In this document: positions 1,635 through 32,200 of the stretch, piece after piece
Layout of the letters: every line of letters begins with the position of its first letter
How positions within the stretch are numbered: the first letter of the stretch is position 1
Virus record (IMG/VR): IMGVR_UViG_3300035138_000007
Location: 1 to 43,427 of that record
Length of the DNA: 43,427 nucleotides
Strand: one strand, 5' to 3'
Source of the DNA: a virus
The notes under the pieces: model-generated
Database searches by the model: none
The model's input: the letters and a program-made list of their open reading frames with translations, nothing else
What the model was told of the DNA's origin: nothing
Position numbers and translations under genes: made by a program

Positions 1635-3470
1635 ATGGGCAAACGAACTGCCATTCAAATGAGAGTGGATATGAGGCTAGACCTTAAGGACTCCGGTAGT
1701 CTCTGGTCTGATACAGAACTAACTCGTTGCATCCGTATGATGGTAGCAGACTTGAGTCGGTACTCCCCACTGCCTAGAGTCTTCGAGGAGTATATAGAGT
1801 TTGATGTCACTGGAGAGTCTGTCACTTTCCCTGCAGATACAGATGCTGACCGGATAGTAGATGGTGCTGACATATCCTCAACTGCTGATGGAGATACACT
1901 AACAATAGCTGCTCAACCTGACGTACCAAGGAATCTAACCATGACTGTCACTGATGCTAGCGGCAACATAACTAACATGTCGGTCATTGTAAGAGGTACT
2001 GATAAGGATGGTATGGCACTGGAGGAAACTCTCCACTATGCTAAAGGTCAAGGAGTCATCACAGGCAAGGAGTACTTCAAGACTGTCAATCAAGTTGAGG
2101 TTGACCAGATAGACGGCAACACATCTGGAGAGACTCTGGATATAGGTATAGGTGCTTACACTGACGTCTGGGTGTACTTAGCTGAACATCCGGTAGCACA
2201 TGAGACTGAGTCTGCAACTGATGATGCAAGTGCTGCTATAACTCGTGGTACTGACTACTCGATAGACTACCTCAATGGTAGAGTCAAGGCTATCAGCGGT
2301 GGGGATATATCTGCTGAGGAGGTATGCACCTTCGCCTATGACAAGATATACATAGGTGTAAACATATCCGAAGTAGCTGACCTTATCAGAGTAGACCGAG
2401 TTGAATACCCAGTCGGTAGAGTACCTCAAGAATTCGTACCAAGTGATAATTGGGGAGTGGCTGAGCATATAGTCTTCGTCACAGGTGAAGGGGAGTATGA
2501 GTCTCAGTCCTACCTTCGTGAAGGTCAGACTATCAGAGTATACTACGATGCAGAACATATACCTCCTAATGACTTCGCACCTGGTACTGTTCCATCATTT
2601 CTTGAGGATGTGGTAATCCGAGGCGCGGGAGCTTATGCACTACTCATGTATGCACTGAAGAGAGAGCATCAGGTAGTAACTGACATTGCCTCCATGAGGA
2701 CAAGTCTTACGGCTGCGAACACGGCTCATACAGCACTTGGCACTGCTCTCACTAATGTCAAGAAGTACTTAGATAACAACACTAGTGCTGATGCGGCTGG
2801 TATACTAGCATCTATAACAACTGATGCCGCTGCTCTTAGAACTGCCATATCTACTGCTCTTGATGCTGCTAATACGTATCTAGATTTAGTAGCTACTACA
2901 GACTTCGTTAATGCAGACAATCTAGTAAATAGCTATATGGGCACTACTAACTACGCTAATAAAGCATCGTTACCTAGTATCCTTCAATACCTTGCTGACG
3001 GAGATGACTTGATTAATACTATAACTGAGGGAGGGGAGAATGAGAAGACTCCTGAAACTTATGCCGTTTATGCCCAGATGACTAAGAGCATCATTGACTC
3101 ATTTAGCGAGTTAAGGAACTCATACTTTGATACTGGACGAATCAGGACTAACGCTGCTCTCGGCTACACTCAGGAGGCAGCTCAGAGACTCTCTAACCTC
3201 AGGAGCTATATCGAACAGTCAACAGGATATGCTAACATAGCTAACACATTTGCTCGGGAAGCTGAGGCTAGGATAGCTGAGATTCAGTCATACCTGCAGC
3301 AGGCTAGTGCGTATGGAGAGGCTGCTAGCGGAGAGTTAGTCTTAGCAGATAGATTCAGAGCTGATGCTCTTGACAGAAGAAATGAAGTGCTATCAATACT
3401 TGGAGATAGAACTCAGTACATAGGAGACTTCACTATGGGTTCTGTCCGACAAGTACCAACTGGAGATTAG
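1635..3470 (+). CDS. Adaptor-like / coiled-coil tail protein
   Basis: 611 residues with an AAGGAGG site. Residues 1-50 (VDMRLDLKDSGSLWSDTELT and onward) resemble the N-terminal helical part of phage head-to-tail adaptors. Residues about 50-230 form a beta-rich insertion with many Thr, Asp and Gly. From about residue 340 the sequence is helical and Ala-rich (SLTAANTAHTALGTAL, AREAEARIAEIQSYLQQ), consistent with a long coiled coil. The combination looks like an adaptor fused to a rod. It is the last long gene of the plus-strand arm, followed by a 34-residue peptide and a terminator. The adaptor call rests on N-terminal similarity only. Confidence 0.65.
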   Translation: MGKRTAIQMRVDMRLDLKDSGSLWSDTELTRCIRMMVADLSRYSPLPRVFEEYIEFDVTGESVTFPADTDADRIVDGADISSTADGDTLTIAAQPDVPRNLTMTVTDASGNITNMSVIVRGTDKDGMALEETLHYAKGQGVITGKEYFKTVNQVEVDQIDGNTSGETLDIGIGAYTDVWVYLAEHPVAHETESATDDASAAITRGTDYSIDYLNGRVKAISGGDISAEEVCTFAYDKIYIGVNISEVADLIRVDRVEYPVGRVPQEFVPSDNWGVAEHIVFVTGEGEYESQSYLREGQTIRVYYDAEHIPPNDFAPGTVPSFLEDVVIRGAGAYALLMYALKREHQVVTDIASMRTSLTAANTAHTALGTALTNVKKYLDNNTSADAAGILASITTDAAALRTAISTALDAANTYLDLVATTDFVNADNLVNSYMGTTNYANKASLPSILQYLADGDDLINTITEGGENEKTPETYAVYAQMTKSIIDSFSELRNSYFDTGRIRTNAALGYTQEAAQRLSNLRSYIEQSTGYANIANTFAREAEARIAEIQSYLQQASAYGEAASGELVLADRFRADALDRRNEVLSILGDRTQYIGDFTMGSVRQVPTGD

Positions 3471-5311: not shown

Positions 5312-6973
5312 CTATTCCCATCTAAAAGTTTGTTTTATATCAAATGGTATTCTGAATCCTGGTATGTGCTCTAGTTCCTCCACTGGTATCTGTCTCTTTA
5401 CATCTCCGTCCCAAGTTATAGAGTCGTGAACGAATATAGCCATGTACTCAGGGCCTAGTCCACGCTTGTTACTTAGCACTACTGCCCGTTTAAATACCTC
5501 TCCATCTGAGCCAAGGATAGGATAGTTAACAGCCTTCCTCTTCTTACCATCAAGGGACTCATCAGGTAGCTTTATTCTCCTGCCGAATAGTGTTGGTACT
5601 GCCCAGCCGGACCTAACCCCTTCTTCCTGTACTTGCTGAATCCAGTCATAAGCACCTCGGTAGACTTTAAACCAGCTGTCTATTAGCTTCTGGCATCTGT
5701 CTATATCTCTTATCTTTGCCTGCTCAGACACAGTCTTAGCCGTAGCTCCATACACAACTGCGAAGTTAAGAGTCTTCGCTAATGACCTTGGCACACTCAT
5801 ACGGTCAGCAGTATATTGATGTAAGTCTGTCTTCCTTGGGTCTGGGTCATACAGAACTTTCAGTAAGTCTCTATCCTGACTCTTATTAGCTAAAATATAT
5901 AGATGCTCTCTGCTATAATCACCAGTTGTAAATATACCTCTGTTAGGTAGAATAACATACCTTGCATCTTCAGGCCAGTTCTGTATATTTCTATTCCGGC
6001 TGTTAAGTCTACCAACTCCGGTATCAAAATAGTATTCGGTAAAGAACCTATTCTCTCCTAATAGTGGTCTAAGGTATGTAGATGAGAACTTACTCTTCTT
6101 ACGCCAAGTTAACACAGCCTCAGCTAGCGGGTCATCGAGGAACTCTAGTGCAGACTTGTCAGTTATTAAACTCTTAGTCTTCCAGTTCTGCGGTAGGAAG
6201 TTTCCTCTCTCCGATAGCTTATATGCTACTTGATATGGACTACCAGGCTTCTCAATTCCGAACGACTGGACATGTTTAGTGAGAGCATCGACTTCCATCT
6301 CATATCTATCAGTTAGCCTCTCCAACTCAGTCTCATCTATCAACAGTCCCTTCATAGATACATCTAGGATAATAGGAAGTGCCTGCATCTCTATGTTAAA
6401 ATATTCTCCATACTTCTCATTTATCTCGTCCTTCCACTTCAGGTATAGTGCATAGGTAGCTCTTACATCAGCCTGGCAGTGCTCGGCTAGAGCCATAGGA
6501 GCTTTCTCCATAAGCTGGATATTATCCTTGACTCCATACTTCTTAAGAATATCTCCCATACCTATGGTGACTACTCCAGTCTGTTCACACAAGATAGGAA
6601 GAGATGTCTCTAGATTGCCCAGTAGTCTAGCAGCTACATTAGTGTCCCAGATGTTAGTTCTCTTGAGAGACTCTCCAACTACAGGAATGAGAGGAAATAC
6701 TCCAAGGTCAAACATGAGGTTATGGCCTAGCTTAACTATCCTTATATCCTCTAACCACTTCTTAACATACTCTAACTCTGGTGGAGTATCATCGTAGAGG
6801 TCAAAGTAAAATGCTTCATAAGGAGAGAATGCTATACCGAAACCTAGAGGTCGTCTATTCTCTAGACTCACAGTCTCAACGTCGAGAGATATAGCCTGAG
6901 GACGATTCTCCTGCCAGTATCGGAAGCGCTCTGTTGGACTAGCGTTCTCAAATCCGTAGTAGTATAATGACAT
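5312..6973 (-). CDS. DNA polymerase, family A, with 3'-5' exonuclease domain
   Basis: 553 residues. The exonuclease motifs are present: DVET (D31, E33), GHNLMFD (N85, D89) and HCQAD (D169). Polymerase motif A is GDYSREHLYILA (D352). Motif B has the family A spacing R396-x3-K400-x3-F404-x3-Y408. Motif C reads VHDS (515-518), with Ser where VHDE is usual. There is no 5'-nuclease domain. This is the replicative polymerase of the phage. Its ATG overlaps the HD gene stop (TAATG), and it is probably transcribed from the promoter at 7587-7615 together with the HD and phosphoesterase genes. Confidence 0.95.
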   Translation of the reverse strand: MSLYYYGFENASPTERFRYWQENRPQAISLDVETVSLENRRPLGFGIAFSPYEAFYFDLYDDTPPELEYVKKWLEDIRIVKLGHNLMFDLGVFPLIPVVGESLKRTNIWDTNVAARLLGNLETSLPILCEQTGVVTIGMGDILKKYGVKDNIQLMEKAPMALAEHCQADVRATYALYLKWKDEINEKYGEYFNIEMQALPIILDVSMKGLLIDETELERLTDRYEMEVDALTKHVQSFGIEKPGSPYQVAYKLSERGNFLPQNWKTKSLITDKSALEFLDDPLAEAVLTWRKKSKFSSTYLRPLLGENRFFTEYYFDTGVGRLNSRNRNIQNWPEDARYVILPNRGIFTTGDYSREHLYILANKSQDRDLLKVLYDPDPRKTDLHQYTADRMSVPRSLAKTLNFAVVYGATAKTVSEQAKIRDIDRCQKLIDSWFKVYRGAYDWIQQVQEEGVRSGWAVPTLFGRRIKLPDESLDGKKRKAVNYPILGSDGEVFKRAVVLSNKRGLGPEYMAIFVHDSITWDGDVKRQIPVEELEHIPGFRIPFDIKQTFRWE

Positions 6974-7566
6974 TATATCCCTAACTTTTCTTTCAACCAG
7001 TAGAATCTACTTAAGAACTGAGCCTCAGCTTCTTTCGGAAACATAAGTCTAAACTTATAATTTAAAGGAATAGGCAGTCCGCTCCATCCTTTTCCTTGAG
7101 TAATCATAAGTTGGTCAGCTTCAGTGGACAATGCTAACTCATCAGCCTCATGTATATTAGACCACTCAGGCCCAACTATATTGAAGTGCTTGACTATGAC
7201 TCCCTGAATCTTATTCTCAATCTCTTTCAGTCCTTTGATGGAGTACTTAGTAGGTCTAGGAATATCCGGTAGATATGCTTCAGATGCATCGTGGAGGAGA
7301 GCAGCATACACGGTCATGTACTGTGACCTATCACTAGAGTACTTATAATCTACCTCAACTATATTACTAACGAATAGTGAGTGATCTGCCACTGAGTAGA
7401 ACTCTCTAACATGCCCGTTGAATCTACACTGGAGAGATAGAGAGTGAGCTATGTCCTTTATATCTATCATGTCTTCAGTAAAGTTGATAGCCGATACTAC
7501 CTTACCAGTGTACGTGTCAAATACTGATGGGTCTTCTGGGTGAAGTCCTAAAGGTTTATTGCTCAT
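6973..7566 (-). CDS. HD-domain phosphohydrolase (YfbR-like)
   Basis: 197 residues with the HD signature: H62 in SVADHS, H92-D93 in LLHDASEAY, E97 and D101, followed by the helix LKEIENKIQGVIVKHFN and later HEADELALSTEAD. This pattern matches YfbR/5'-deoxynucleotidase-like HD enzymes, which act on deoxynucleoside monophosphates. In a phage the enzyme could adjust nucleotide pools during replication. It is the first gene of the HD-polymerase-phosphoesterase operon, has a GGAGG site nine bases upstream and is preceded by a strong promoter. The substrate is inferred, not visible. Confidence 0.85.
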   Translation of the reverse strand: MSNKPLGLHPEDPSVFDTYTGKVVSAINFTEDMIDIKDIAHSLSLQCRFNGHVREFYSVADHSLFVSNIVEVDYKYSSDRSQYMTVYAALLHDASEAYLPDIPRPTKYSIKGLKEIENKIQGVIVKHFNIVGPEWSNIHEADELALSTEADQLMITQGKGWSGLPIPLNYKFRLMFPKEAEAQFLSRFYWLKEKLGI

Positions 7567-7586
7567 CGGTTTAATCCTCCTATATA

Positions 7587-7615
7587 ATTATATCACCTAG
7601 TTCCTTAGTTGTCAA
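7587..7615 (-). promoter_or_regulatory. Sigma-70-type promoter of the HD/polymerase operon
   Basis: Reading on the minus strand, TTGACA (7615-7610) is separated by 17 bases from TATAAT (7592-7587), a full consensus match. The predicted start point, about 7580, coincides with the GGAGGA ribosome-binding site (7580-7575) of the HD gene at 7566, so the leader would be only about 14 nt. Confidence 0.9.
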
Positions 7616-7619
7616 TCTG

Positions 7620-7718
7620 TTACATTCCGCAGGCCGGATAGCCTGAGCCAAATATGAAAGTAAATAGTATGAATACTCCAACTATCACGGTGAACTTAAC
7701 GATAGACCACTTGTTCAT
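7620..7718 (-). CDS. 32-residue membrane peptide
   Basis: An AAGGAGG site lies six bases before the ATG, which overlaps the methyltransferase stop as ATGA. The product begins MNKWSIVKF, has one hydrophobic segment (about residues 7-23, TVIVGVFILFTFIFG) and ends in a short polar tail with one Cys (YPACGM). It is a single-pass membrane peptide of unknown function. The gene ends just upstream of the HD/polymerase promoter and was too short for ordinary gene calling. Confidence 0.6.
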   Translation of the reverse strand: MNKWSIVKFTVIVGVFILFTFIFGSGYPACGM

Positions 7719-8515
7719 GTAGGCCTCCTTACTATTACTATATCCTCGTCGTCTACAACCTCCCAGCCTCTTGACCTATATATATTAGTGAATACAGACC
7801 CTGGTGCCTTCCACTTAAACCAAGCGTAACTCTCGAAGCCAACTTGCAGACAGGCGTCTAGTGCAGCTTGAGACAGCATAACACGTTGCCGGTCTTTCAT
7901 ATGGTCTTTGACTATTAGTGACATAGTACCTCCTGGTTTAAGAGACTGAAAACCTTTCTGATAAATCTTCTTCATCTCCTGAGCCCATAGCCAGTCGTTC
8001 ATCTGCCCGAGATTCATAGGGCTAGTAAAAGAATACTCTGCAGTGTTCATACCTTTCTCACTCGTTAGCTTATCAGTACCCTTAGACTTCATTATACTAG
8101 CATATGGAGGTGAAGTGATTATATGGTCTACCCAGTTAGGTATAGGCATCACCTTCTGACATGGGAGGTTGATGAGACTAATCCGGCTAGATACTCCAGG
8201 TGCTATGGTCTCTAACTTATCCACTGCTTGTCGTTGGAGTCCATGAAAGACAGGACTAATCTCGATACATATAGAGTTTCGGCCTATCATCGAGCCTACC
8301 ATTAGAGTACCAGTACCTGACATTGGGTCAAGGATAGTCTGGTCATACTCAGACACATACTCAATGATGGCCTGGACTAGGTATACGTTAGCCTTAGCTG
8401 GATGTTGGTTGACCTCGGGTGGAAACATTTCTTTTCTGTAGTCATCATCTCGAGGAAACAGTACCCAGTCGTGTTCATCTCGGTCATATTCTGGCGCGAA
8501 TAGCTTAGTTTTCAT
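7715..8515 (-). CDS. DNA methyltransferase (N4-cytosine/N6-adenine type)
   Basis: 266 residues. The AdoMet-binding motif I (LDPMSGTGT, residues 62-70) precedes catalytic motif IV (TSPPY, 134-138), the order found in the alpha/gamma classes of amino-methyltransferases. A conserved HPAK (38-41) precedes motif I. No restriction endonuclease gene adjoins it, so it is a solitary phage methylase, plausibly modifying the phage's own DNA against host restriction. Its ATG overlaps the upstream stop (ATGA). Target sequence and base cannot be read from the sequence. A downstream 32-residue membrane peptide is coupled to it. Confidence 0.88.
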   Translation of the reverse strand: MKTKLFAPEYDRDEHDWVLFPRDDDYRKEMFPPEVNQHPAKANVYLVQAIIEYVSEYDQTILDPMSGTGTLMVGSMIGRNSICIEISPVFHGLQRQAVDKLETIAPGVSSRISLINLPCQKVMPIPNWVDHIITSPPYASIMKSKGTDKLTSEKGMNTAEYSFTSPMNLGQMNDWLWAQEMKKIYQKGFQSLKPGGTMSLIVKDHMKDRQRVMLSQAALDACLQVGFESYAWFKWKAPGSVFTNIYRSRGWEVVDDEDIVIVRRPT

Positions 8516-23272: not shown

Positions 23273-23349
23273 TGGTACGGCAGGCAGGACTCGAACCTGC
23301 GGCCTGGACGTTATAAGCATCCTGCTCTAACCAACTGAGCTACTGCCGC
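23273..23349 (-). tRNA. tRNA-Ile, anticodon UAU
   Basis: A full cloverleaf of 77 nt on the minus strand: acceptor stem GCGGCAG with CTGCCGT (one G-U), D-arm GCTC/GAGC, anticodon stem GGATG/CGTCC with loop CTTATAA, T-arm GCAGG TTCGAGT CCTGC, discriminator A and an encoded CCA. The anticodon (23315-23313) is TAT, reading AUA. Bacteria usually read AUA with a lysidine-modified CAU tRNA, so UAU is uncommon. The tRNA lies between genes of the leftward operon and would help decode AUA isoleucine codons, which are frequent in many genes of this arm. Confidence 0.95.
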
Positions 23350-23557: not shown

Positions 23558-23837
23558 CTTCTATTCCCTCCATTGGATTCTCTTTAAATAAGACTTCACC
23601 TAGAATATCTATGATAGACTCAGCTATCTCCTCAATATCTTCCCGAGATATGAAAGTCTGGAGGTAAGCCCCAAGAACTTCATGAGTTGCTGAGACAGCC
23701 TGACGCCTTAGTGATAGTGAAGAGTCCACATAGATGTTTACAGAAGTAGTGCGGTATGCTCCTCCAGTATCATGTTCGGACAAGTTTTCTGTGTGCACAG
23801 TTATATTACTTATCAGTTGCTCTACCATATACCTCAT
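23550..23837 (-). CDS. Small hypothetical protein
   Basis: 95 residues. The N-terminus has a beta pattern (ISNITVHTENLSEHD). The segment SLSLRRQAVSATHEVLGAYL is a predicted helix, and the C-terminus is acidic (VLFKENPMEGIEDD). It overlaps the end of the preceding zinc-type gene by 32 bases. No family was recognised. Confidence 0.6.
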   Translation of the reverse strand: MRYMVEQLISNITVHTENLSEHDTGGAYRTTSVNIYVDSSLSLRRQAVSATHEVLGAYLQTFISREDIEEIAESIIDILGEVLFKENPMEGIEDD

Positions 23838-24159
23838 CCTTTCTCATGATATCAGCTACCTTGGCAAACTCCTCAGGGCCTAGCACTCCGGCAAGTAACC
23901 GGATATTCTCCAGTTTAGCTAGTGCAATTTTAGCCCTAGGATGCTGGTCAAGAATCATCTGGTAGCCTTCAGTATATCCGTATTTGTGCATGAGTTCTTT
24001 TAACTCAACTGCGGTAGTAAATGTAGCAGGCAGCCACTTAGCCTGATAACAGTACTTGCACACGAACATAGTACCTCTGTCGATAGAGAAGCTGCTCTCC
24101 CAGTGATGTACATGGGGAGCCGAGGGCCTGGTAGGACACCTATGGTCTATCCACTCTAT
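23806..24159 (-). CDS. Zinc-binding hypothetical protein with apparent ATA start
   Basis: 117 residues if started at ATA (24159-24157), which overlaps the preceding TAG as ATAG. CTG at 24165 (ten bases after GGAG) is the alternative; there is no ATG, GTG or TTG in the expected place. Cysteines and histidines are C8 in HRCP, H16/H18/H19 in APHVHHW, and C34/C37 in FVCKYC, a metal-site pattern. The C-terminus is an acidic helix with basic ends (MRKDEVYGRATDK). The frame remains open far upstream, but that part overlaps a better-supported gene in another frame. Confidence 0.6.
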   Translation of the reverse strand: MEWIDHRCPTRPSAPHVHHWESSFSIDRGTMFVCKYCYQAKWLPATFTTAVELKELMHKYGYTEGYQMILDQHPRAKIALAKLENIRLLAGVLGPEEFAKVADIMRKDEVYGRATDK

Positions 24160-24611
24160 TCCCAGCTCTTCGGCACTCCGCCAAGGTGAGATATCTCCTC
24201 CCGAAGGTTTTCCAGCCTTTCGCCCAGATGGATTAGAGTATCTATGTCTCTTTCCTCTGGACTTTTCTCTGCCTCTACTTTTAGCTGCTGCACTACCTTG
24301 GCTCTCTTTCTTAGCACGGCTAGCCGCTGGTCTCTCTGTTCCTTTGGTAAGAGTATTTTCTTCCTTCCTCTCTTCTCCACATAACGCCTCTTGTTGAACT
24401 CCTCCATCCCCTGCTCCAGCCAGCAGCACTGCCCGTCTGACTTCCTCTTTGCGTGCCAGTGAAATGTCCTTGTCCATGTCCTCGACTCACCTCCTTCCGA
24501 GTTGAACTTACGCCAGAGTTTACCGAAGACCTCAGGTTCGCCAACTGAGATATTTTCGTGGCAGTATTGACACTCGGCAGACCTGTTGCATCGGCTTAAC
24601 CAGATATCTAT
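24156..24611 (-). CDS. Zinc-finger protein with apparent ATA start
   Basis: 151 residues if started at ATA (24611-24609), overlapping the previous TAG as ATAG; GAGGTG lies five bases upstream. The likely metal ligands are C8, C14, C17 (AECQYCHENISVGE), H51/H53 in FHWHA and C62/C63 in QCCWLEQG. The C-terminal 80 residues are a charged helix (KEQRDQRLAVLRKRAKVVQQ). From the start to the first in-frame ATG (24407) there are 68 codons with no ATG, GTG or TTG, yet all the cysteines lie there. A non-standard start or a frameshift from the upstream gene is therefore implied. Function unknown. Confidence 0.65.
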   Translation of the reverse strand: MDIWLSRCNRSAECQYCHENISVGEPEVFGKLWRKFNSEGGESRTWTRTFHWHAKRKSDGQCCWLEQGMEEFNKRRYVEKRGRKKILLPKEQRDQRLAVLRKRAKVVQQLKVEAEKSPEERDIDTLIHLGERLENLREEISHLGGVPKSWE

Positions 24612-24817
24612 TGTTGCACCTCATCTAACTTTACTATATTAACACCATGACCGCCTGTGCAATACTTTTCGTGGCAGTCATCACACGCAAATAAATAACC
24701 AGTTACATAGTTATCCTTCCTAAAAGCTACTTGGTGTAGTCTATTTTTAGTACCGCAGAATTGGCAAGATGTAATAGCATCTTCATACCTATTCTTAATT
24801 TCATCCCGATTATTCAT
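24608..24817 (-). CDS. Zinc-ribbon small protein, first gene of the leftward arm
   Basis: 69 residues. CQFCGTKNRLH (about 19-29) and CDDCHEKYCTGG (about 46-57) give a C-x2-C ... C-x2-C zinc ribbon. AGGAG lies 10-11 bases before the ATG at 24817. It is the first gene read from the leftward promoter, so it could act early, for example on host transcription. The role is not shown by the sequence. Its stop overlaps the next frame's ATA. Confidence 0.7.
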   Translation of the reverse strand: MNNRDEIKNRYEDAITSCQFCGTKNRLHQVAFRKDNYVTGYLFACDDCHEKYCTGGHGVNIVKLDEVQQ

Positions 24818-24840: not shown

Positions 24841-24870
24841 ATTTTAACACTAAGTGCATCCAGTTGTCAA
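24841..24870 (-). promoter_or_regulatory. Leftward sigma-70-type promoter
   Basis: On the minus strand, TTGACA (24870-24865) and TAAAAT (24846-24841) are 18 bases apart. The predicted start point, about 24834, is just before the AGGAG site (24832-24828) of the first leftward gene. The -35 overlaps a rightward -35 on the opposite strand. Confidence 0.75.
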
Positions 24871-24975: not shown

Positions 24976-25623
24976 ATGGAAGAGTTGCAGTATGAAGGTG
25001 AAGTCGTCAGAGACAAAGGCAACGAGGCCTTGTCAATAGCCAGTACAGTTATCCCATACGATAGAGAGGATTCAGAAGCTCAGTATCTATTCAATAGAGC
25101 TTGTGGTCTGTCAGTTAGAGAGACTCTAGAGGTTATAGATAGGACAAAAGGCTGGCTGTCTAACATCCGAGCAAGAGATCCGCAGTTTGTAGAACTGGAA
25201 AAGCAGATACCAGAATTCCGTAAGACCTTATCTAAAGACTTCCTAAAGATAGAATGGATGAGGAACTTCCGGCTAGCTATGGCTAAGGATAGGAAGATAC
25301 TCAAAAGAAGCCTCGGTATGGAGAGAGATGGCAGCGGTGAGGTAGTCACTATGACTAACTTCGACCAGCAGTATCTTCTCAAGATGCGAACTCACTATTC
25401 CCCACAGCAACTACAGGTACTCCAAGCTATCGGTACTGAGGGAGACGGTGGAATTAACTTCGGTCAGTGGGTACTGCAGAATTCCAACATAGTCCAAAAT
25501 GTTCAGAACATATATGGTGAGGTTAAAGATGGCCAGAAGAGTAACAGCCAAAGTCCGTCAAGCAGCCCGCAGGAATATCCGCAGAGCCCAGTTAAGCAGA
25601 TACCGAGTCAAGGAACCACGTAG
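24976..25623 (+). CDS. terS: Terminase small subunit
   Basis: 215 residues from the ATG at 24976, with AGGAGGG four bases upstream. An in-frame ATG at 24931 overlaps the promoter and is rejected. The N-terminal segment ACGLSVRETLEVIDRTKGWL is a helix-turn-helix with the spacing of TerS DNA-binding domains, followed by a long helical core. The last 28 residues are Ser/Gln/Pro-rich. The role is to recognise the packaging site and regulate the large subunit, inferred from the position just before the large terminase. Another gene overlaps its C-terminus in a different frame. Confidence 0.78.
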   Translation: MEELQYEGEVVRDKGNEALSIASTVIPYDREDSEAQYLFNRACGLSVRETLEVIDRTKGWLSNIRARDPQFVELEKQIPEFRKTLSKDFLKIEWMRNFRLAMAKDRKILKRSLGMERDGSGEVVTMTNFDQQYLLKMRTHYSPQQLQVLQAIGTEGDGGINFGQWVLQNSNIVQNVQNIYGEVKDGQKSNSQSPSSSPQEYPQSPVKQIPSQGTT

Positions 25624-25660
25624 CGTGGGCAGGATTAGGCAGGTAAGGAGGACTAGATGA
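25529..25660 (+). CDS. Arginine-rich 43-residue peptide overlapping terS
   Basis: A second frame within the terS tail: ATG at 25529 with GAGGTTA upstream. The product (MARRVTAKVRQAARRNIRRA and onward to VRRTR) has about 18 Arg/Lys in 43 residues. Its stop overlaps the next ATG (25657) as ATGA, the genome's usual coupling. The overlap of 95 bases forces the Ser/Gln/Pro-rich composition of the terS end. A DNA- or RNA-binding or charge-neutralising role is plausible. This is an overprinted gene candidate. Confidence 0.6.
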   Translation: MARRVTAKVRQAARRNIRRAQLSRYRVKEPRSVGRIRQVRRTR

Positions 25661-25839
25661 ACCAGTTTGATAAGGATAGGCTTGATAGACTAGAGGGTAA
25701 GGTTGATGACATTAAAGATAACCATCTGTCTCATATCTATGATGCTATTGGTAATCTTAACGGAAAGCTCTGGGTGCTAATTCCTATAGTTCTTTCTCTC
25801 GTGGGACTGATAATAGGTCTTTATGTTAAGGGAGGTTAG
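25657..25839 (+). CDS. Small coiled-coil membrane protein, holin-like
   Basis: 60 residues with AAGGAGG before the ATG. Residues 1-30 are a short coiled coil (RLDRLEGKVDDIKDNHL). Residues 36-56 are one hydrophobic segment (LWVLIPIVLSLVGLIIGLYV). The layout resembles XhlA-type haemolysin/holin-associated proteins with N-terminal helix and one membrane span. It lies between terS and the large terminase. The lysis role is inferred; a membrane anchor is another reading. Confidence 0.7.
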   Translation: MNQFDKDRLDRLEGKVDDIKDNHLSHIYDAIGNLNGKLWVLIPIVLSLVGLIIGLYVKGG

Positions 25840-27549
25840 ATGCAGACAGTTACTCAAGACCAAGCTATGGCACAGCTGTTCTCTAACCGTCAGATGACCA
25901 TAGAGACTCTACTAGAGATAGAGAACAAAGATAGAGAACTCGTACCTATGAAGTTCAATAGTATCCAGGAGAGAATGATTAGTGATTCTACTGGCCGAGA
26001 TATCTATGTTAAGCCTGGACAAGTCGGGGCAACTTCAGTCCACGTAGCTGACTTCTACATAGACAATATAACTATCAACGGAACAGTATCGGTCATTGTC
26101 TCTTACGATGAGTTCTCTGCCAAGAGACTTATCATGAAGGCCAAGAAGTATCACAACAACCTGGCTCGTCGTTGGCCTACTATCCCTAAGCTAGACCATA
26201 AAGGTGCGGAGGAGCTGACATGGGAGATTAAGGACGACAAGGGTAGGACGGTGTTCTACTCCGTCATGTATATATTCTCGGCTAGGAGTTATACCATAGG
26301 CCGAGGCGAGACTATCCACAACTTACTGTTGGATGAGTACGCATTTTGGCCTGAGGGAACTCACGAGTCTGTATTTGCATCCGCAGTTCAGAGAGTCCCG
26401 CTAAAGAAAGGAACTAAGATTCGTATCCAGTCAACTGCTAACGGTGAGGAAGACTTCTATGAAATGTACAAGGCTGCAGTTGAGGGAGTGAACATAGGTA
26501 CTGGTAGAATTAAGTCTGTCTACAAGCCTCACTTTTACCCCTGGTTTGACCATGAGGAGTACCGGATGAAACCAGACGACCCGTTTGTTCTTGACGGAGA
26601 CGATGTGGATGAGTTACTAAATCTTCAACCTGAGGAGGAGAACTTGCTCACTAAGCTAATTGCAGACTTCGGCTTCAACTATGATGGAGCTATGGATGCT
26701 CTCAGATGGAGAAGGTACAAGAAGGCTGAGATGGCCTCCCAACGACGCTCTGGGGACACTATGTTGCTGTTTGAGCAGGAGTATCCTGAAGACGACGAGA
26801 CATGCTTTATTATTGCAGGTAACTTAGCCTACTCCTCAGATATAGTTAATAGTAAGATAAGTCTCTCATATCCAGCTCCGAAACATATTAGTGTTACTAA
26901 CAAGAAAACTGGCGTATCTATCGAGGTAGACATCTGGTTTGATAGAGAAGATGGGCTAGGGTACTTACTCTCCATTGACCCTGGGAAGGGTAAAGTATCT
27001 GAGTCAGTTGCTCACGTCTGGCACTTTGAGGACGGATATAAAGATAAGGATGGGAATGAGGTTCCACCAGTATTGAGGCACTGTGCCACTATGTCCGGCT
27101 GGTACGACGAGTATGAGTTCGCAGAGTACTGTAAGGAGCTCGGATACTACTACAACGGTGCAGTAATTTGTCCTGAGGACAACTTGGACATAGTCTCGCA
27201 TCTTAGAGGCTACGCTAACCTCTACTATAGAGAAGACGTAAGGTCTGGCAAAATGATTCGGGCAATAGGTTGGCAGACTAATACTTCTACCAAGCCTTAC
27301 ATGCTCACTGAGTTAAATAAGTATCTAGAAGACATAGAGTGTTATGACCGGAGATTCTGGTCTCAATTAAAGAATATACGTAGAGACCCAACTGTCAAGT
27401 ACGGTATCTCAGTCATTGGTGCTGATGACCACCATGATGCTGGAGCTATTGCAGTAGTTTGCAAGGACGCTCAGATGCAAGTGGTAGGTCATGTCTGGAG
27501 CACCTCTGACCCAGAGGCTGGCGGCTGGTCTGACGATTGGGGGAGATAA
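25840..27549 (+). CDS. terL: Terminase large subunit
   Basis: 569 residues. Walker A-like segment VKPGQVGATS (57-66), with the lysine at the start as in many terminases. Walker B LLLDEYAF (162-169; D165, E166). Motif III IQSTANG follows. The nuclease part has LLSIDPGKG (about 374-382), VICPEDNLDI and a C-terminal DDHHDAGA (about 528). This is the ATP-driven packaging motor and headful or site-specific nuclease. The stop overlaps the portal start (TAATG). Confidence 0.93.
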   Translation: MQTVTQDQAMAQLFSNRQMTIETLLEIENKDRELVPMKFNSIQERMISDSTGRDIYVKPGQVGATSVHVADFYIDNITINGTVSVIVSYDEFSAKRLIMKAKKYHNNLARRWPTIPKLDHKGAEELTWEIKDDKGRTVFYSVMYIFSARSYTIGRGETIHNLLLDEYAFWPEGTHESVFASAVQRVPLKKGTKIRIQSTANGEEDFYEMYKAAVEGVNIGTGRIKSVYKPHFYPWFDHEEYRMKPDDPFVLDGDDVDELLNLQPEEENLLTKLIADFGFNYDGAMDALRWRRYKKAEMASQRRSGDTMLLFEQEYPEDDETCFIIAGNLAYSSDIVNSKISLSYPAPKHISVTNKKTGVSIEVDIWFDREDGLGYLLSIDPGKGKVSESVAHVWHFEDGYKDKDGNEVPPVLRHCATMSGWYDEYEFAEYCKELGYYYNGAVICPEDNLDIVSHLRGYANLYYREDVRSGKMIRAIGWQTNTSTKPYMLTELNKYLEDIECYDRRFWSQLKNIRRDPTVKYGISVIGADDHHDAGAIAVVCKDAQMQVVGHVWSTSDPEAGGWSDDWGR

Positions 27550-29297: not shown

Positions 29298-32200
29298 ATG
29301 CCGTTAGAAGGATTTAAACTGCCAAGTCCTAGAGATATTCTAGCAGGGCCTGGACAGGAAGAAGAGAAGAAACAAACTCAGCCTGTACCTCCAGTAGAAC
29401 CTCCAGAATATTTTGAGGGGTATCAGAAGATGCTGGGTAGTATGACTGAGCTCTCTAAAGGAGCTATGGAGAGGCAGAAGGCTGCTCAGCAAAACCTGAA
29501 GGAGTATGAGCGTGCTCCATTCATAGCTTATACTGCAACTCTTGGACTAGCCTCAGTTGGTAGATGGAGACGTAACTATGAGGCTCAGCTGGAAGTAGCT
29601 AAGCAGGAACTAGACTTTGCCACTCAGGAGTTCAGCAGATTCAGCTGGAGAAGTAATGTACTAGTTGCTCTTCCCTACATGATGGCAGACCCTGATACTC
29701 CTATGGACTCAGTAGAAGATGTCTACAGTCAGTTTCCTAACGAATTGTTACTAGATGCGGATAGAAACTGGCTTCAGTCTGTATTCGATAGATTGAGCTA
29801 TATGAGGCCAGGCCAGCTACCAAAAGAGTTCACAGGAGATGTTAGCGAGGTAAGAACTAACCTATTAGATACAATATTAACTGAGCCTCCTGAAGGTCTA
29901 AGGGCAGTCCATAATCTAACAGTAGAGGAGTTGCAGAAGTCCTTCCAACCTATTAGTGCGGAATTGCCGTCTGGATTAACTGCAGAAGATGTAAGGAATA
30001 TTCTGACCGACCTTGAGTTCGATGAGCAGACTCAGGAAGAGATAGATAGTATCCAGAACGTAGTGTCTGAGTTGCGGAAAGACTGGATTGAGCAGTCAGC
30101 ATATGTGACTCTTGTTAGAGATGGAGTACTTAATGCTGAGGCTCCAGATTTAACTAACTGGGAATTTACCAAGATGCTATTTACTCAGCCTGCTATGGCT
30201 ACTATGGAACTATTAGATAAGTACTTTAATATGCTTCCTAGACCTCTAGCTGCCCAGGCTATCATGGCTTTTCCTAGCCTAACAGAAGACTCAGCTGGTG
30301 CTAGGCTAGAGGCTAACTACAATAAGCTAAGAGCTGAAGGCATGGGTGCTTGGGAAGCTGCTTCTGAGGCCTTCCAAACTTGGGATGCTAACCAGTGGCT
30401 GAAGTTTTACGTAGAGGGAGCCTTTGACCCTACGTCTTACGTTGGATTCGGGATGGCTACTAAGGTAGGCACAACTGTTGATAAAGTTATCCTAAGAGCT
30501 TTACAGAGAGGAGCTGAGTCAAAAGCTCTCTCTGCTCTAGAGAAAACGTCTAAGTTCTGGACTACTGTTCCTACTAAAGGTCCTTATCTAGGTAGGTTTG
30601 CTGGAGCTATCGAATCAGGCTGGAACGAGATGTGGGAGGTACCTTTTAGAGGACTTAGGAGAGCTATAACTTCGATTCCTCAGACTCCAACTCAGAAGGC
30701 TATTAGCTACGGTAGACAGGCCTTCATGGATACTCGAGCATACCTTAGAAGATTCACTGGTGTGGAGATGAAAGGTATGACAATCCCTCAAATGCGAGAT
30801 GCTATTGACAACGCTATCCAGCAAGCTATGGCTAGGCCTAAGGAAACCGGAGACTTGTCAGTAAGAGTCGGTAGGTATTTCACTGACTACGACTTCATAA
30901 CTCAAGATATATCTAGAGACTGGATTAGAGTCGTTGGAGGTGAAGGAGCTAACATTACTCCTCAAGTAACTCATAACATAAATATGGACTTTGACCTATT
31001 TCATAGAGGGTCTATGAGTAGCTCCGAGGCTGCTACTAATATGCTGGCCTCAATGGGAGTTGAAGCCGCTGAGAAGAATGTAGGAAAGTTAGCTAATACT
31101 ATTGATAGGTATAGTAAAAAGATAGTAGAAGATGGCCTAGGATTAGTCAAAGGCGATTCAGCACATGATGTTCTGTCTGGACTTATACATCATGTAGAGG
31201 ATATGCAGATAAGGAAGACTCTCAGTGCTGAATATAAGTTTGCGCAGCAGGTTGGTAGGTCTACATCCTGGACATCAAGGATAGGTCAGGCTATTGACTC
31301 ATTAACTCGTAATAGTATCTTAACTAAGATTGACCAGATAGTAACTGCTCCTATGGCTAATCAGTACCTACTGTTCACCAACTACGGTCCTTTCAATATC
31401 CTTGAGAGTGCAATGAGGAGTTTTCTAGGCGGTGGAGAGCTGCTCTATCCGAAAGCTGCCAGTCCAGTTGATGAACTAGTCAGAGCTGGCGAAGGCTTAA
31501 CTAACCTTCCATATGAGTTCATAACAGCTCAGAGAGACTTGGGTAGACTTGAAATTGCAGTTATTGACCCTAAGACTAACAAGACTCAAGTATTCAATAA
31601 AGGTAAGATTCCTGGGATAACTAAGGACTTACCAATAGGTGCCAAGATAAACATCGGTGGGCATGAATATCCTATACGCTCTTGGCAGAACTGGAATGAC
31701 ATGTTCGGAGATATTGGTACTAAGCAGAGAGCTAACTACCTCCTGACTAAGTACAAGCAGTACCTAACTGAACTCGGCGGAGACCAAGTCGCAGCTATCA
31801 GCCAAGTGTTTGAGAAGCACCAGCACTTCCTAGACGGTATCACTAGTATATCTAAAGGAGATAAGGATGGACTGATTAGGTCTATGATGATGGATGCTAC
31901 TGTAGGCCCTGACATGGTTCTGAAGCACATGATACCTCTATCCCAGTTGGAGAGAAGGAAAGCCCTTAGAACTATCAATAAAGTGTTGGATAAATGCACT
32001 GATGTATATAGTCCTCACAAGCAGGCTATCCGAGATGCTATCCTTGATGGAACTGCATGGGGGAATGTAGATAACTTCATGGACGGAATTAAGGAGTCAG
32101 TCAGGGAGTTTAACATCATTAGCCTGCAACAGGAAGCTAGAGCTCTAGACAATCTAGTGACTAGTTTCAAAGACTTCGCTCCACTAGACGGAGACGAACT

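Follow-up and report, generated by a model that had tools for sequence, protein, structure and literature searches.

Only a few bacterial genes are on record as starting at AUA or AUU; one of them is the infC gene of E. coli, with AUU. In S. aureus, infC and ccpN start at AUA and cvfC1 at AUU, with extended Shine-Dalgarno (SD) sequences and an output of about 10% of that obtained from AUG, and citZ is also among the genes with non-canonical AUA/AUU starts (PMC13009471). IF3 inhibits non-canonical starts, as well as initiation on leaderless mRNAs and SD-less reinitiation (PMC2268962). In the literature on AUA/AUU starts of phages we found no case obviously of the kind described here.

The gene considered in this study lies on the minus strand of a virus record of 43,427 bases, the whole of which was analyzed and is hereafter termed the window, opposite to the terminase genes. 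The initial annotation had noted that its frame contains no ATG, GTG or TTG before the ATG at 24407 (residue 69), that the ATA at 24611-24609 overlaps the TAG stop codon (24610-24608) of a 69-residue ORF, and that a GAGGTG motif at 24622-24617 lies five bases upstream of the ATA; this description of the DNA proved correct throughout. Going upstream, the frame holds only a TGA stop followed by GGT GCA ACA ATA. All other frames of at least 100 codons in the window have a canonical start among their first 40 codons, apart from two exceptions, one of which runs off the left end while the other is antisense to a gene. The features of this locus, along with those from related contigs that are discussed below, are collected in Table 1.

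Table 1. Coordinates of the features discussed in the text (SD values are anti-SD duplex energies)
Feature	Sequence	Position	Strand	Remarks
Zinc-finger CDS	Window	24156..24611	-	151 codons counted from AUA; homologues in 24 other phage loci
AUA start codon	Window	24609..24611	-	Homologous start column; no alternative start between in-frame stop and AUA
Shine-Dalgarno GAGGTG	Window	24617..24622	-	5-nt spacer to AUA; anti-SD duplex -6.9 kcal/mol
Met69, first in-frame ATG, rejected as start	Window	24405..24407	-	L or I at that residue in all 22 other aligned members
Downstream gene, probable CUG start at 24165-24163	Window	23806..24165	-	Overlaps end of zinc-finger CDS; no canonical start at the right place
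Zinc-ribbon-like 69-aa ORF	Window	24608..24817	-	ATG start, SD -8.2; TAG overlaps AUA (ATAG)
Promoter-like TTGACA-18-TAAAAT before 69-aa ORF	Window	24841..24870	-	Read from sequence; hexamer architecture as in relatives' promoters
tRNA-Ile, anticodon UAU	Window	23273-23349	-	CCA encoded; Rfam tRNA 69.9 bits; G1.U72 pair
Small protein	G023	25598-25874	-	ATA at homologous start; SD -8.9
Conserved protein	G027	30861-31692	-	ATT at homologous start column
Large terminase (L097)	G004	6428-8122		ATA in place of the homologues' ATG/GTG/TTG; a TTG within the conserved part is the first canonical codon

Searches of viral contigs, named phages, Pfam and PHROGs with the single protein sequence returned no match. 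Relatives were instead reached by way of the terminase, which led to related contigs, from these to homologues with 42-54% identity, and through alignment searches to 24 non-redundant loci of other phages, whose products share 35-54% identity with the window protein over nearly its whole length. The conservation across these homologues begins exactly at the ATA codon of the window; taken with the near-unique lack of a canonical start, this indicates that the frame did not arise by chance. The start column is occupied by ATG in 18 of the 24 loci, by GTG and TTG in one each, by ATA in two diverged relatives (L036 and L051) and by ATT in two more (L048 and L058). None of the latter four has an ATG, GTG or TTG between the in-frame stop and the start column: in L036, L048 and L058, as in the window, the stop lies 3-5 codons before the ATA or ATT, and in L051 the ATA is preceded by 16 codons that include none of the three. 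These members are scattered on the family tree, which has many weak forks and on which about three changes are needed. Conservation restricted to the part downstream of the ATG at 24407 was looked for in the homologues and is not seen, as it starts at the AUA. Initiation at AUA, which the initial annotation had proposed, is thus well supported by homologues that start at this column and by the recurrence of ATA/ATT in four other lineages.

The metal site put forward at first comprised C8, C14, C17, H51/H53 and C62/C63. Across 23 aligned members C14, C17, H53 and C63 are invariant and C8 nearly so, whereas conservation does not extend to H51 and some of the members lack C62. The invariant residues form a PARP-type CCHC site, which is followed by a helical C-terminal part, and an AlphaFold2 model of the protein (mean pLDDT 89) places the first strand at residues 2-7. 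The alignment of the homologues from the AUA onward, this first strand, the invariant zinc ligands and a Met69 found only in the window together make it very likely, as far as comparison of the sequences can tell, that the AUA is the real start. A fold search of the PDB ranked the zinc fingers of PARP-1 first, with a weak match (E 0.13, probability 0.82), and no solved structure matching by sequence was found. The Pfam profile zf-PARP (PF00645) matched 4 of the 23 members (best E 5.5e-5) and DUF7667 (PF24704) matched 7 of them (best E 4.3e-5), but the window protein matched neither, and hence we term it PARP-like without filing it under zf-PARP. It shares with the zinc fingers of PARP and DNA ligase III the ligand order CxxC ... 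WH ... C, and differs from them in the helical C-terminal part, which has no known counterpart. Our best guess is a PARP-like zinc finger that binds DNA and carries a helical tail, and the protein may serve as a DNA-binding regulator or accessory factor. No family members were found in the genome_contigs collection, where the sole terminase relative is 22% identical and comes from Caloramator, nor among 398 genomes from the phylum to which that Caloramator genome (G034) belongs, in a search run without a positive control.

We also considered whether AUA might be read as methionine throughout. Where AUA occurs inside genes, the homologues have Ile, Val or Leu at the aligned position, and Met in only 6% of cases vs 45% for AUG, so the genetic code is the normal one. 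In most of the 19 contigs Ile is encoded most often by AUA (35-57% of Ile codons; 42% in the window). The window encodes a tRNA-Ile with the anticodon UAU, which was rejected as an AUA initiator since it has an elongator-type anticodon stem (GGAUG/CGUCC) without the three G-C pairs of initiators; none of the 18 related contigs, not even those with ATA starts, carries a tRNA gene.

The SD sequences provide a further distinction within the family. All five AUA/AUU members, the window included, have strong ones (-6.9 to -9.1 kcal/mol), whereas those of the canonical-start members are mostly weak by comparison (p = 8e-4) and also weaker than those of the phages' other genes (median -2.8 vs -8.6, p = 3e-5), although these p-values are optimistic given that the family members are related and the homologues are not independent. 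Some other gene families of the early region of these phages have weak SDs too, and weak initiation is therefore not unique to the zinc-finger family. Five AUG members, namely L037, L039, L040, L047 and L052 (near position 3000), carry a TTGACA-17/18-TATAAT (or TAGAAT) promoter that ends 5-9 nt before the ATG and probably gives rise to leaderless transcripts, while many other AUG members abut an upstream stop and have no SD. In L036 and L051, a perfect sigma-70 promoter (TTGACA-18-TATAAT) lies 31-32 nt before the ATA and there is no upstream ORF of at least 30 codons, which implies that de novo, SD-driven initiation suffices.

We consider it highly probable that the gene is translated by SD-driven initiation at a near-cognate AUA which holds the 151-residue zinc-finger protein at a low level, coupling to the upstream gene being optional in the window. 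Ordinary initiator fMet-tRNA would start at the AUA, held there by the strong SD, and produce a protein whose N-terminal part is a PARP-type zinc finger; termination of the overlapping 69-residue gene would probably bring extra ribosomes in the window, but would not be required in the relatives. As AUA and AUU are near-cognate and discriminated against by IF3, they would most likely serve to limit the protein to a low level, which may be sensitive to IF3. The sequences show where the start lies by homology, that AUA/AUU recurs and how strong the SD is; the low output and the IF3 dependence, like initiation at the AUA itself, we infer. Relatives seem to attain equally weak initiation in other ways, through an AUG that lacks an SD and is either leaderless or abuts an upstream stop, and we suggest with moderate confidence that the family as a whole is kept at low initiation.

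AUA and AUU might also have no regulatory meaning, and reflect neutral drift tolerated by a strong SD or a permissive host. Conserved genes of 19 related contigs were compared with their homologues for N-termini that lie well upstream of any canonical start. By a strict criterion this was seen in 5 of 18 members of the zinc-finger family vs 3 of the roughly 310 conserved genes outside it (Fisher p ~1e-5, optimistic for the reason given above), the homologous start codon being ATA or ATT in each of the 8. A loose criterion gave 34 anomalies, mostly conserved SD regions ahead of a normal ATG, and hence only the strict count was used. The three genes outside the family, which code for a small protein, a conserved protein and a terminase large subunit, fit drift, as do the scatter of AUA/AUU on the family tree and the gene downstream, which seems to use CUG. 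The concentration in one family and the inverse relation of start codon and SD strength, however, speak against it, and we regard drift as a tentative alternative that nonetheless deserves more credence than any other.

The start column of the downstream gene is an NTG that overlaps a conserved Trp codon of the zinc-finger gene, with ATG or TTG in most relatives and CTG in the window, L043, L048, L051, L057 (shifted), L059 and L061. An ATAG at 24159-24156 was considered as a second AUA start, and is less likely than the CUG two codons upstream, as the homologous column is NTG; judging by this column, the gene probably starts at CUG. Out-of-frame ATGs far upstream of it cause mechanical ORF lists to make it over-long (24477).

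Somewhat less favored than drift, and in our view doubtful, is the proposal that ribosomes terminating at the UAG move back by one base to begin anew at the AUA, such that the start depends on coupling. The initial annotation suggested this termination-reinitiation by analogy with ATGA junctions, and in the window it is indeed possible, the 69-residue ORF ending at +1 with an SD just upstream of the ATAG overlap (24611-24608); at least 10 AUG relatives likewise abut an upstream stop. It is, however, not needed by L036 and L051, which have the ATA behind a promoter and nothing to couple to, and L048 and L058 have no ORF of at least 30 codons ending at the start. The start-stop overlap is seen in the window only and is not conserved with the unusual start in these four loci, and no relatives of the 69-residue ORF were found in the fetched loci. 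Coupling is thus a possible local aid in the window and not a general mechanism. Small cysteine-rich ORFs occur just before the zinc-finger gene in L043, L057, L062 and the window, those of the relatives being mostly unlike the 69-residue ORF.

The range of starts in the family also allows a more far-reaching reading, which we hold to be unlikely: that all members are under IF3-disfavored initiation, be it at AUA/AUU with an SD, at the AUG of a leaderless transcript or at an AUG that abuts an upstream stop and lacks an SD, and that the protein reads the IF3-to-ribosome ratio of the host. If so, the zinc-finger protein would be switched by the translation state of the host.

It is very improbable that a true ATG was read as ATA through a sequencing or assembly error. 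The ATA of the window does rest on a single contig, and no near-identical contig was found when one was looked for; but four more lineages have ATA or ATT, two of them each in a pair of separately named contigs, and the agreement within these pairs (L036 is identical to L050 over 6,447 bases, and around the start L048 matches L049 over 3,000 bases) argues against random error. Even less credible is a start at the ATG at 24407 with the upstream frame untranslated, for although this is the first canonical start in the frame, residues 2-68 are conserved with all zinc ligands, no other aligned member has Met69, and the truncated protein would be left with neither the zinc site nor any strand of the predicted fold. 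A -1 frameshift fusing the 69-residue zinc-ribbon protein to the zinc finger, which had also been suggested, merits as little belief: a -1 shift at the junction would indeed lead from one frame to the other, but GTG CAA CAA TAG holds no slippery heptamer of the X XXY YYZ type, the 69-residue gene was found in no relative, L036 and L051 have no upstream gene to shift from, and homologues carry Met exactly at the start column.

Gene finders that admit only ATG, GTG and TTG would miss this gene or truncate it, with loss of the whole zinc finger. A family in which AUG, AUA and AUU replace each other while the SD changes in the opposite direction provides a natural experiment on the evolution of weak initiation, which also bears on what selection keeps, low output or IF3 sensitivity. 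We place this phage gene in the known class of genes with near-cognate starts. With S. aureus infC, ccpN, citZ and cvfC1 it shares an AUA or AUU, a strong and well-spaced SD and conservation across relatives, and cvfC1 is alike also in that it encodes a small putative zinc-finger protein and heads an operon (PMC13009471). Unlike the S. aureus set, the genes described here belong to phages and switch between ATG, ATA and ATT inside one family.
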